A DNA stretch of 64,000 nt. Source: an uncultured Victivallales bacterium. GTDB lineage: Bacteria; Verrucomicrobiota; Lentisphaeria; Oligosphaerales; JAFGRS01. Below are positions 46,340-51,325 of this stretch, in pieces; positions within the stretch are counted from its first letter, which is position 1, and the number at the start of each line of letters is the position of its first letter. Location of the stretch: contig CAILUI010000097.1 of NCBI GenBank assembly GCA_903837355.1, positions 1 to 64,000 of the forward strand, read 5' to 3'. Below the pieces are notes generated by a model, which saw only the letters and a program-made list of their open reading frames with translations, was not told where the DNA came from and did not search any database. The translations under genes were made by a program, and so were the position numbers.

Positions 46340-49300
46340 TCAGGGCGTGGCCGCGGCGACCCCGTCGAGGTGTTTGCCGTCGGGGGTCCGGAAGCGCACT
46401 GCGGCGCCCCAGCCGCCCTGGCCTTGGGTGACTTTCAGCAGGATGGTGTTCTCGCCCTGGATGAGCTCGGCGGCGACCTTGTCCTCCCCGGGGCGCAGCG
46501 GCCGGCTGGCGTTGTTGGCATGGACCAGGCGCCCGTTCAGCCACAGTTTGACGCCGTCGTCGCTGCCGAGTTCAAGTTGCACCGACTGGGCCTTGGGCGA
46601 GGTGACGCGAGCGCGCAGGAAGGCGGCGCGGTGACTACCACCCAGCAGCTTGACCAAGTCCACGACGGGGATGCCGTCGGCGTCGGCGCTCACCGGCGCC
46701 GGCTGCCAGAGGACGCCCTTGGCCTCGGGCTGTTCCGGCGGCAGGACCAGATCAAAGAGGCCCGCACCCTCGACGCCGGCCTGTTCATAGGGACCGGCCA
46801 TCTGCCACACGGTCAGATAGTCCTCACCCGCCTCCAGCTTCTGGAGCAGGGCCTGGGCGTCCTTCGCGACGGCGTCGTTGCTGACCGCGGCCAACCGTGC
46901 CAGGATGGCGCGGCGCTGGGCCGGCGTGCCGGCATTGCTGGCCACCCAATCCGCCGCGGCGGCGTGGGTGGCAGGGTTGGCTGGATCCTGTTGGAGATCG
47001 GTCGCGATTCGCTCGGGCGCGGTCGGGCTGGACAGGGTTACGACGTCGGCCAGTGCCTGGTCGTCGGGGGTTCTGAAACGTGCCGCCGCCGACCAGAAGC
47101 CGCCGCCCTGAGCGACTTTCAGCAGCAGGCAGTTCCAGCCGGGTTTGAGAGCGACCTCCGGGGTATCCTGGGCCGGGGCCAGGGCGCGGTCGACATCCTG
47201 GTCGACGACCAGGGCGCCGTTGAGCCAGGCTTTGGCGCCGTCGTCCGTCCCCACCTCGAGCCGCGCGGTTTGGGCCGCGGCCACCCGCACCCACGTACGC
47301 AGATAGGCCACGCACTGGTTGCCGCCGAGGACCTCGTCCAGGGGCACGTACCACGACTTCTCTGGGGCCGTGGCCGTACGCACCGGCCTCCAGGCGACGG
47401 CTGCGCTCGGTGGCGTCTGCTCCGGCGGGAAGGCGATGGCGTGGAGGTCGGCCCGGTTCTTCTTGTCTTGCGCGTAGGGTCCGGCCAGGAGCCAGAGGGT
47501 CAGGTAGCCCTCGTACTTACGGATCTCGGCCTGAAGCTCGGCGGCACGCTGGCGCTCGGCGGGGGATGGGGCCTTGTCAGCCACCGCCCGCAGGGCCGCC
47601 TGACACTCCTGCGGATATTGCCAGCGCAAGTGGTCCACGAGCCCGTTGAGTGCTGCCGCGGCCTCGGCGGCGACGTCCGGCTGTTCCAGGCAGGCCAGGG
47701 CGACCGGCAGGGCGCCGGGGTCCGCGATGTCGCCCAGGCCGGCGAGCACGAGCTTGCGGTCCTCCGGGCGGGGCACTGCTGCCATGGCGTCATTCAGACG
47801 CGCGAGCTTCGCGGCCGGGCTGAGGGTTGCCGCCTCGCGGACGACGCGGACATAGCCGCGCAGGGCCAGCACGCGGTGCACCGTGTCCGGCGCGGTCTTG
47901 ACGACGTTCAGCAGATCATCGGCGGCGTTGGCATCCGGCCAGTCAGCCAGGGCGCGTACGGCGGCATCGCGCAGCTCCGGCGCCGGGTCTTTGAGGGCGG
48001 CTTGCACGGCCGCCAGCGCCTGGGTGCCGCCGATGCGGCCGAGGGCGCGCAGCAGCAGCCCGCGGTTGGTGGGGGTCGCGCCGGGCAGCGCCTCAACCAG
48101 GGTTCTTGCTGTACGTTCCGGATCGTTGGCGCGCCGCGCCACGGCGGCAATGGTCTTGGCGGCCTCGTCGCGTTCGTCGTCGCGACGGGCGTTGAGTAGC
48201 AGGGGCAAGAGGCTGGGGATGTCCGCTTCGCCGGCCAGGCGGGACAGTCCGCGCAGGGCCTCGGTGCGGACCGTCGCCTCGCCGTCCGTGGCGGCAACCT
48301 GGCGGAGGAAGGCGACGGTGGCTTCGCCGCGCCGCGTGGTCAACGTGACCAGGAGGGCGCGGCGACCCGTCGGGGGCGCCGCTGGGAAGGCGGCGATCAG
48401 GGCGCTGGCGACCGCCTCGCCCGGGATCAGTGCCAGGGCGTTGCGGGCGGCTTCCAAGGTGGCGCCGCGGCCCGTGGCAACGACCTGCGCCAGGGCCGGG
48501 GCCGATTGGGGATCGCCCAGCAGTCCGAGGCCGGCGATGGCGATCAGGCGCAGTTCCTCGCTCTCCTCCGCCAGGGCGGCGGTCAGGGCGGGGCGCACGC
48601 CGGCAACGCGGCTCTCGGCGAGGGCTTGGAGCAGCGCCTGGCGCAACTGGCTGGAGGCGGTCTGCAGGGCCGCGGTGACCGCGGGCACGACCTCGGCGGC
48701 CGGTAGCAGCGCCAGGGCGGCGCGGGCAGCGCCGCGCGTTTCGGCATCGGCCGCGCCGAGGGCCGCGATGAGGAGCGGGAGGTCGGCGGCACTGCCGGCG
48801 CGGCCGATGCCGATGAGCGCGGCGTGCCGAGCCGGGGGTGGTGCAGCGAGGAGGTCATGGTAGAGGGTGAGGGCGGCGGCGCGGTCGCCCCGCTCGCAGA
48901 GCCGGTCCGCGAGGCGCAGGCAGGCGTCGGCAGCCGGTGCGCGCAGGGGCTCCGGACCGCCCTTCAGGGTCTCCAGCAGGAGCGCCGCATCCGTGGCCTC
49001 CCCGACGGCCGCCAGGCCGTCGAACGCCAGGGCCCGGGTGGCAACCGGTCCCGCGGCGGCAGCGGCGCGGAAAACCGGCATGGCCGCCGGTTCGCCGCGG
49101 TACACGAGCGCTTGCAGCAGGGCCAGCCGCTCGGGCTCGTCAGTGGACTGTTCGAACCGCGTGCGCAGAGCGGCGCCCGCAGCGGTGGCCGGGTTGGCGG
49201 CGAGGGCACGGCGGGCCGCATCACGGAGTTCCGCATCCGGCTGCTCCAGGAGTGCGGCCAGGGGTGCCACAGACTCGTCGCGGCCGACCAGGGCGAGTTG

Positions 49301-49648
49301 CCGCAGCAGGAACAGGGGTTTCGGCGCCGGCCGCTCGCCCGTGAGGGCGGCGCCGATGGCCGTACAGAGCGCCTGGCGCTCCGCCTCGGCGCCGGGCCGG
49401 GCGGCCAGCCAGCAGCTTGCCTGGAAGGACTGCTCTGCCTGCTGGCGGGCGCCGACATCGTCGCCCGTCAGCGCCGGCAGGGCAGCGCTGAGTCGCGCCG
49501 CAAAGAAGGCCTGGCGTTGGGCCGCAGTCGTGACCTCTGCTGGCACCTCCGAGGTTGGCATGGGCGGCGGTGGGGCCGGCTCCGTACGCACGCAAGCAGC
49601 GCTGAGAACCGCCACGAGGATCGTCGCCAAACGTATGGAACGGCGCAT
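46340..49648 (-). CDS. HEAT-repeat lipoprotein with two PA14-like C-terminal domains
   Basis: 1102 residues. The signal peptide LATILVAVLSAAC puts the acylated Cys at 19. Residues about 90-700 are HEAT/PBS-lyase-type helical repeats (LRDAARRALAANPATAAG, TRGAARAALALLPA, LRDAAVRALADWPDANAADDLLNVV). Two similar beta modules follow at about 713-869 (YLTLWLLAGPYAQ; VGTDDGAKAWLNGALV) and about 942-1098 (YLTVWQMAGPYEQ; LGSDDGVKLWLNGRLV), reminiscent of PA14/CBM-like ligand binding. A surface scaffold is inferred. The start at ATG 49648 gives the lipoprotein signal; RBS GGAG. It is first in a probable operon with the GH5-like gene. MITE DNA lies just upstream. Confidence 0.78.
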   Translation of the reverse strand: MRRSIRLATILVAVLSAACVRTEPAPPPPMPTSEVPAEVTTAAQRQAFFAARLSAALPALTGDDVGARQQAEQSFQASCWLAARPGAEAERQALCTAIGAALTGERPAPKPLFLLRQLALVGRDESVAPLAALLEQPDAELRDAARRALAANPATAAGAALRTRFEQSTDEPERLALLQALVYRGEPAAMPVFRAAAAAGPVATRALAFDGLAAVGEATDAALLLETLKGGPEPLRAPAADACLRLADRLCERGDRAAALTLYHDLLAAPPPARHAALIGIGRAGSAADLPLLIAALGAADAETRGAARAALALLPAAEVVPAVTAALQTASSQLRQALLQALAESRVAGVRPALTAALAEESEELRLIAIAGLGLLGDPQSAPALAQVVATGRGATLEAARNALALIPGEAVASALIAAFPAAPPTGRRALLVTLTTRRGEATVAFLRQVAATDGEATVRTEALRGLSRLAGEADIPSLLPLLLNARRDDERDEAAKTIAAVARRANDPERTARTLVEALPGATPTNRGLLLRALGRIGGTQALAAVQAALKDPAPELRDAAVRALADWPDANAADDLLNVVKTAPDTVHRVLALRGYVRVVREAATLSPAAKLARLNDAMAAVPRPEDRKLVLAGLGDIADPGALPVALACLEQPDVAAEAAAALNGLVDHLRWQYPQECQAALRAVADKAPSPAERQRAAELQAEIRKYEGYLTLWLLAGPYAQDKKNRADLHAIAFPPEQTPPSAAVAWRPVRTATAPEKSWYVPLDEVLGGNQCVAYLRTWVRVAAAQTARLEVGTDDGAKAWLNGALVVDQDVDRALAPAQDTPEVALKPGWNCLLLKVAQGGGFWSAAARFRTPDDQALADVVTLSSPTAPERIATDLQQDPANPATHAAAADWVASNAGTPAQRRAILARLAAVSNDAVAKDAQALLQKLEAGEDYLTVWQMAGPYEQAGVEGAGLFDLVLPPEQPEAKGVLWQPAPVSADADGIPVVDLVKLLGGSHRAAFLRARVTSPKAQSVQLELGSDDGVKLWLNGRLVHANNASRPLRPGEDKVAAELIQGENTILLKVTQGQGGWGAAVRFRTPDGKHLDGVAAATP

Positions 49649-49675
49649 GAATCGGGGTCTCCAAGGGGTCAAACG

Positions 49676-49803
49676 TAATGCCCACCAACTTAGGACGAAG
49701 GGGCTCATAGGACCGCGTAAACGCGGGACTACGAACCGGCCCCCCGTCAGACGCCTCTGGGTTTGTAGTCCCGCCTTCAGGCGGTCTAAGTTGGGGGGCA
49801 TTA
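49676..49803. mobile_element. 128-bp MITE with 18-bp inverted ends and 10-bp target duplication
   Basis: TAATGCCCACCAACTTAG (49676-49693) and CTAAGTTGGGGGGCATTA (49786-49803) are inverted repeats matching 17 of 18. The element is flanked on both sides by GGGTCAAACG (49666-49675 and 49804-49813), a target-site duplication. Inside are REP-like hairpins of the type GTAGTCCCGC-loop-GCGGTC in each arm. No transposase is encoded. It sits between the HEAT-lipoprotein start and the oxidoreductase stop, where it may influence expression of the downstream operon. Confidence 0.88.
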
Positions 49804-49847
49804 GGGTCAAACGCACCGCCTGGTGGCACACTTGGGAGGGTCGGCGT

Positions 49848-51125
49848 TCAGGCCAGGCACCACGGGGCCCGGCGGGGGCGGTCGAGCCAACGGCTGGCCT
49901 CGGCATCACCGATCAGTTCCTCCTTGACGGGATCCCAGCGCAGCGGCCGTTTGAGCCAGTAGGCGAGGTTGCCGAGGTGACAGACCGTCACCGAGCGGCA
50001 GCCGATCTCGACGTCGCAGACCGGCCGCTGGCGGGAGCGGATGCAATCGAGGAAGTTGCCGCGGTGGTCGCGGCTGTTGTAGAGGTGGACCTCGCCGGGC
50101 TGGGTCGGCGTCTTCATGAGGTCATCGGGCCAGGTCTTCAGGTGGCCACGGTTGACCTCGATCTTGCCATCGCTGCCGGTAAAGAGCACGCCGTCGCTAC
50201 CGCCGCCGTGGGTGAGCGTGACGCCGTTGGCATAGACATAGGTGAGCTTGGGGCGGTCTTTGCCATCGGGCGGCAGGATTTCCAGCGGGCCGCTCTCGTC
50301 CATGTTCAGGCCCCACTGCGCGATATCGAAGTGGTGCGCGCCCCAGTCGGTCATGCCGCCACCGGAGTAGTCGCGGAAGGCACGCCAGTTGAACGGGTGG
50401 ATGGAGGAGTGGAAGGGGCGGTAGGGCGCCGGTCCCAGCCACAGATCCCAGTCCATGCCGGCGGGCACGGCTTCGGCGGGCAGATAGCAGTCGCCCGACG
50501 GGCCGCCGACGTTGGCGTTGATGGTGATGAGCTTGCCGATGCGGCCGCTGCGCACCATCTCGCAGGCGAAGCGGAACTCCGGCGAGGAGCGCTGCTGGCT
50601 GCCAGTCTGGAAAACGCGGCCGTAACGGCGCACGGCGGTGGCCATGGCGCGGGCTTCGCGGATGGTCAGCGACATCGGCTTTTCGCAGTAGACGTCCTTG
50701 CCGCTCTTGGCCGCGGCGATGGCGATGAGGGCATGCCAGTGGTCGGGAGTCGCGACGCAGACCGCGTCGATGTCGTCGCGCGCCAGCAGTTCGCGGAAAT
50801 CGCCGTAGGCCGCGCAGCCTTTCCATTCGCCGCTGGCCTTTGCCGCCGCGTAGTGTTTCTCGACGTCCTCGCGCGCCGCCGCCGCGCTCTTGGCGTCGAC
50901 ATCGCAGACGGCGACGACCTGGACCTCGTTGAAGCCCATGAAAGCGCCGAGGTTGCCGCGCCCCATGCCGCCGACCCCGATAAAGCCCATGGTGATGCGG
51001 GCGCTGGCGGCGGGCGTGGCCTCCTGGGCCAACGCCGCGGCCGGGATGAGCCAGGGCGCGGCCGCCAGCGTCGCGCCGGTGCCACGCAGGAAACCGCGGC
51101 GACTGAGATGCGTCATCTGTGTCAT
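49848..51125 (-). CDS. Tat-exported Gfo/Idh/MocA family oxidoreductase
   Basis: 425 residues. A twin-arginine signal (SRRGFLRGTGATLAAAPWLIPAAALA, residues about 8-33) exports it folded. The Rossmann domain follows: ITMGFIGVGGMGRGNLGAF, VVAVCDVDA, VCVATPDHWHALIAIAAAKSGKDVYCEKPMSLTIREAR (EKP motif). The C-terminal domain has MTDWGAHHFDIAQWGL, with the His pair typical of the family. These periplasmic enzymes, often with bound NAD(P), are abundant in PVC bacteria and are thought to act on sugars; the substrate is unknown. AAAGGAG precedes ATG 51125. Confidence 0.9.
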   Translation of the reverse strand: MTQMTHLSRRGFLRGTGATLAAAPWLIPAAALAQEATPAASARITMGFIGVGGMGRGNLGAFMGFNEVQVVAVCDVDAKSAAAAREDVEKHYAAAKASGEWKGCAAYGDFRELLARDDIDAVCVATPDHWHALIAIAAAKSGKDVYCEKPMSLTIREARAMATAVRRYGRVFQTGSQQRSSPEFRFACEMVRSGRIGKLITINANVGGPSGDCYLPAEAVPAGMDWDLWLGPAPYRPFHSSIHPFNWRAFRDYSGGGMTDWGAHHFDIAQWGLNMDESGPLEILPPDGKDRPKLTYVYANGVTLTHGGGSDGVLFTGSDGKIEVNRGHLKTWPDDLMKTPTQPGEVHLYNSRDHRGNFLDCIRSRQRPVCDVEIGCRSVTVCHLGNLAYWLKRPLRWDPVKEELIGDAEASRWLDRPRRAPWCLA

Positions 51126-51325
51126 CAGGGGCTGCTCCTTTACCACCTCTCCGGTTGTGGGCGGCTGATTCCGATAAGGATAGCCCACGCCGGGCGCGGG
51201 TCAAACCGCTTTGTGAAAGCGCGGAAGCGCCCACCGCTGACGGCCGGGGCGCCGCCTGCTGCCGGGCAGCCCCAGGGCCGATCGTCAGACCGGCCCCGGG
51301 GCCCGTCAGGCCGCCACGCGAGGCG

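Follow-up and report, generated by a model that had tools for sequence, protein, structure and literature searches.

Our analysis identifies a 128-bp repeat in the 64,000-nucleotide stretch of DNA studied here (the window) as a non-autonomous MITE with IS4-type ends, a REPIN nested between them and a preference for GGGTCA targets, a known kind of mobile repeat. We consider it highly likely that this element has been moved in trans by an IS4-family transposase, with the REPIN as its cargo. The explanation is founded on the ends, the duplications, the target preference, the family of copies and the independent occurrence of both modules.

The element (Table 1) is short, carries terminal inverted repeats and lacks both a transposase gene and any other coding capacity of its own. 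Its ends, TAATGCCCACCAACTTAG and TAATGCCCCCCAACTTAG, are identical at 17 of 18 positions; 0.02 matches to the 18-bp end are expected by chance, and two were found in none of 100 shuffles. The 10-mer GGGTCAAACG abuts both ends and is otherwise absent from the window, where 0.08 occurrences are expected and where none of 100 shuffles contained two. As DNA, the strand folds far better than its shuffled counterparts (z -5.45). The sequence-only reading had described a 128-bp element whose inverted ends match at 17/18 and whose 10-bp duplication is exact, and its coordinates proved right to the base.

Table 1. The MITE, its component parts and the genes on either side of it, in window coordinates.
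Feature	Position	Strand	Remarks
Predicted lipoprotein with HEAT-like repeats, MRRSIRLATILVAVLSAACVRTE...	46340..49649	-	Translation read; start picked by eye inside ORF 46340-49909
Left target-site duplication (TSD) copy, GGGTCAAACG, 10 bp	49666..49675	+	Other copies have different 10-mers, matching within each copy
MITE, 128 bp, non-coding	49676..49803	.	
Left terminal inverted repeat, TAATGCCCACCAACTTAG	49676..49693	+	First 19 bases 14/19 against one E. coli IS4 end
GTAG-type REP hairpin, GTAGTCCCGCGTTTACGCGG, first REPIN half	49713..49732	-	
Spacer between inverted REPs, GAACCGG...GGGTTT	49733..49764	.	Also identifiable in REP pairs away from the MITE
GTAG-type REP hairpin, GTAGTCCCGCCTTCAGGCGG, second REPIN half	49765..49784	+	
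Right terminal inverted repeat, TAATGCCCCCCAACTTAG, read on the minus strand	49786..49803	-	
Right TSD copy, GGGTCAAACG	49804..49813	+	
TAT-signal oxidoreductase, Gfo/Idh/MocA type, flanking gene	49848..51188	-	Translation read; stop codon 34 bp from the duplication

The host genome (9.6 Mb in 466 contigs) contains about a dozen related copies that span at least half of the MITE at 89% identity or more, most sharing 89-97% identity with the window copy along the greater part of its length, together with truncated and older copies. Each well-preserved copy has a 10-bp repeat of its own on either side: some of these flanks agree exactly (GAGGTCACTC, GGGTCACAGC, GGGTTGACCC and GGGTCAGTCC), and others match at 9 of 10 positions. 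Among 40 end pairs from all the loci analysed, in this genome and others, which include some alternative registers and decayed ends, the flanking 10-mers agreed at 8 or more positions in 24, as against 56 of 1560 comparisons across copies (3.6%). Since these 10-mers agree within a copy and differ between copies, and keep a constant length of 10 bp, the repeats are target-site duplications rather than part of the element; the same comparison of flanks rejected the assignment of GGGTC to the element itself. When each site was oriented towards the consensus, the duplicated targets read GGGTCAnnCC (G20 G18 G21 T21 C20 A14 n n C18 C20 out of 24). These data bear out the proposal, made from the letters of the window, of a transposed MITE with a target-site duplication. 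That proposal also held the insertion to be fairly recent; the exact duplication and the 17/18 ends agree with this, but the copies have diverged by roughly 3-10%, which leaves the claim weakly supported. Because the copies differ by several percent, the burst was not very recent.

The MITE fills most of a gap of about 200 bp between two minus-strand genes. It lies 16 bp from the start of the lipoprotein gene, whose putative ribosome-binding site is intact, and most of the copies with a clear gene neighbourhood likewise sit in tight intergenic gaps. This placement, a strong fold of the RNA relative to shuffles (z -4.67) and the discussion of REP sequences as terminators and mRNA stabilisers in PMC3733652 are consistent with an alternative in which the MITE is kept as a regulatory hairpin, a terminator or mRNA stabiliser between co-directional genes, so that its spread would reflect selection and not mere transposition. 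However, intergenic placement is equally expected if insertions in genes are lost, and the interiors of the MITEs differ between species without conservation. We regard selection for a regulatory role as an improbable account of the spread. The insertion may nonetheless affect the two flanking genes, and it is possible that the MITE hairpin acts on the flanking operon.

The ends point to a particular family of transposases. IS4-subgroup elements have ends of the form -AATR--------WTW with a relaxed first base and 10-13 bp repeats, and IS231-subgroup elements have ends of the form CAT-------AA--TAA, 10-12 bp repeats and insertion specificity (PMC2266710). The MITE ends read NAATGCC...AACTTARG, in which N-AATG matches the -AATR of the IS4 subgroup, and the sole misfit to that signature is a C at position 14 where W is published. 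Counted from the second base, the end also fits the IS231 signature, save that A replaces C and that the final defined position is G or A. The left end shares 14 of 19 positions with one end of E. coli IS4, TAATGCCGATCAGTTAAGG; by our own arithmetic, about one random pair in 100,000 would score as well. The 10-bp duplication falls within the published 10-13 bp. In end sequence, duplication length and target preference the ends fit the IS4 family of DDE transposases and its IS4 and IS231 subgroups. The MITE encodes no DDE/YREK transposase and, being non-coding, is not itself an IS4-family insertion sequence.

Intact IS4-family elements with NAATG ends do occur in the same order. Two loci from the same order encode IS4-family transposases between ends CAATGTCATTAACTTAAGG (L194) and CAATGGCATTCGTTT (L195), each with a 10-bp duplication matching at 9 of 10 positions; both were found by looser criteria (NAATG ends and a 10-12 bp duplication). 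A third, L199, found by its ends, lies in the window's own GTDB family and has an IS4-family transposase with ends CAATGCCRTTAAGT, cut at the contig end. All three transposases score above the cut-off of model NF033592 and contain the YREK motif. The suggested check, a full-length insertion sequence or transposase with matching ends, was therefore answered in part: the order holds IS4-family elements with related but not identical ends and 10-bp duplications, whereas this assembly holds none. Here, every strong match to the end either belongs to a pair spanning about 108-130 bp or stands alone as a truncated end, no IS4-family transposase (NF033592) was detected, and the four weak DDE_Tnp_1 matches lie without such ends or REP. 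Searches with NF033592 over 48 genomes of the order recovered no element with the exact ends, a scan with PF01609 of nine genomes that carry matching ends linked no transposase to them, and nowhere that we searched did an intact transposase lie between two NAATGCCCCCCAACTTARG ends; the ends in several relatives run into contig breaks. Such ends lie about 60-240 bp from the breaks in two genomes (L228, L232, L235, L237 and L239 in G407; L230, L233, L236 and L241 in G170). Stopping at contig breaks is usual for multi-copy elements in metagenome assemblies, and its recurrence in several class members suggests that assembly or binning has dropped the body of a multi-copy element.

One locus raises the possibility that the same MITE is instead mobilised by a transposase of the IS256/Mutator type. 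At L242 (G347:C495:5500-11500), a lone GAATGCCCCCCAACTTAAG end adjoins GGGTCACACC, and about 0.9-1.3 kb inward from it is a frameshifted remnant of Transposase_mut (PF00872, E 1.1e-13), but the would-be second end matches at only 13 of 19 positions and has no matching duplication. Moreover, duplications of IS256 elements are usually 8-9 bp, as against the 10 bp that this MITE shares with the order's IS4-family elements. Mobilisation by this type of enzyme is, in our judgement, quite unlikely. A REP-like pair is also present inside the lone end at L242.

Inside the MITE lie two GTAG-type REPs, each with a GTAG head and a G+C-rich hairpin, that together form a complete inverted pair (a REPIN or BIME). 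The same REP pairs occur outside MITE ends both in this genome and across the order, as single pairs or in arrays, so the REP exists independently of the element that encloses it. Tandem-like GTAG REP arrays with a period of about 82 bp and without MITE ends are found at two sites (G000:C130:1-240 and G000:C249:143053-143991; L029, L030). Conversely, the same ends enclose six unrelated classes of interior, most with 10-bp duplications, in the nearest named relative that we found, Lentisphaerae bacterium RIFOXYA12_64_32 of the same order, and in class members less closely related. None of these six contains the window's REP pair; counting the window's own, seven classes of interior share the ends. 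Among 84,980 public genomes the exact end gave ten matches, and a pair of ends was found only in RIFOXYA12_64_32; the AACTTAA variant of the end had no match in viral contigs. As the ends occur with other interiors and the REP pair occurs without the ends, the element is a composite of two independently mobile modules, and the suspicion that a REP-type unit lies within DDE-type ends is now well supported. It is very improbable that the whole 148-bp unit, GGGTC direct repeats included, is a single REP-type BIME spread by a RAYT with no DDE transposition: the MITE does enclose a true GTAG REP pair, of a kind common in the genome and order, and the genome has 13 Y1 transposase (Y1_Tnp, PF01797) genes, but the flanking 10-mers agree within copies and differ between them, and six interiors that lack this REP pair have the same ends and duplications around them, so that flanks and interior classes alike contradict it.

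In the loci that we read, none of the 13 Y1_Tnp genes of the assembly had MITE ends or an exact GTAGTCCCGC REP beside it. One such RAYT-like gene is on the same contig as the MITE, 2.1 kb past the end of the window (G000:C97:66125-66469; L063), and a matching REP was not found beside it. The loci tested against Rfam matched no family.

One copy of the MITE (L022 from about position 1103; G000:C131:4334 onwards) is interrupted by a different repeat, GCACCAAGCGGGCGCAGTGCCGCCCGATCATGTCAGG...GAGTTTCACAGG, which is about 145 bp long, has at least 40 matches and is also present in L113, L120, L121, L124, L125 and L130. This repeat sits in hairpin loops, that of the REP included (CCGCC-TTCA-GGCGG, CAGCC-TTAA-GGCTG), with a duplication of at most 2 bp, and many contigs break inside it; it had no match in Rfam. 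We tentatively speculate that IS4-type DDE ends and a RAYT-moved REPIN, which are unrelated mobility systems, have fused into a single stable compound that spreads as a unit, that the third repeat, by targeting the loop of the REP hairpin, would make this a three-layer nest of mobile, non-coding repeats, and that the REPIN might help the element that hosts it, for example by preventing its transcription.

For the IS4-type MITE that we favor, we picture the following sequence of events. The REPIN would have entered an IS4-ended element first, probably by a separate single-strand REP/RAYT route, and would since have been copied with that element as one unit. An IS4-family DDE transposase would move the MITE in trans, presumably by cut and paste, making a staggered cut at a 10-bp target with the consensus GGGTCAnnCC that is left duplicated. 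These findings connect the repeats of a phylum that has received little study (Lentisphaerae-type bacteria) with known transposon families and offer a clear case in which a DDE-type element carries a REP doublet along as it spreads, so the copy number and position of REPs are not in every case attributable to RAYTs. The GGGTCA target, conserved across the class, provides a simple test of IS4-type target choice.

Comparison with known systems places both modules. Like IS4 of E. coli, in the IS4 subgroup, the element has ends of the form NAATGCC.....A..T.A with a relaxed first base and a duplication of about one helix turn; unlike IS4, it is a MITE without a transposase, its duplication is 10 bp instead of about 12, and it strongly prefers GGGTCAnnCC inside the duplication. 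The resemblance extends to IS231 and MIC231 of the Bacillus cereus group, whose signature CAT-------AA--TAA agrees with the MITE end, read from its second base, at most of the defined positions, and which share 10-12 bp duplications, insertion specificity and, in the mobile insertion cassettes, movement in trans. The cargo of MIC231 is protein-coding, however, whereas the REP pair carried by the MITE is non-coding, and the MITE's host belongs to another phylum. As in REPINs and BIMEs built from GTAG-type REP doublets, hairpins with GTAG heads stand in inverted pairs around a conserved spacer and occur in many intergenic copies; in contrast to other REPINs and BIMEs, the doublet here is enclosed in transposon ends and copied with them. 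The combination of a REP and an enclosing element has precedent, since PMC3733652 reports that the GTAG-15 dimers of Anabaena variabilis lie regularly inside larger palindromic repeats. According to the same report, the enclosing palindromes of A. variabilis were not found without REPs, whereas the ends described here surround other interiors as well and are flanked by target duplications.
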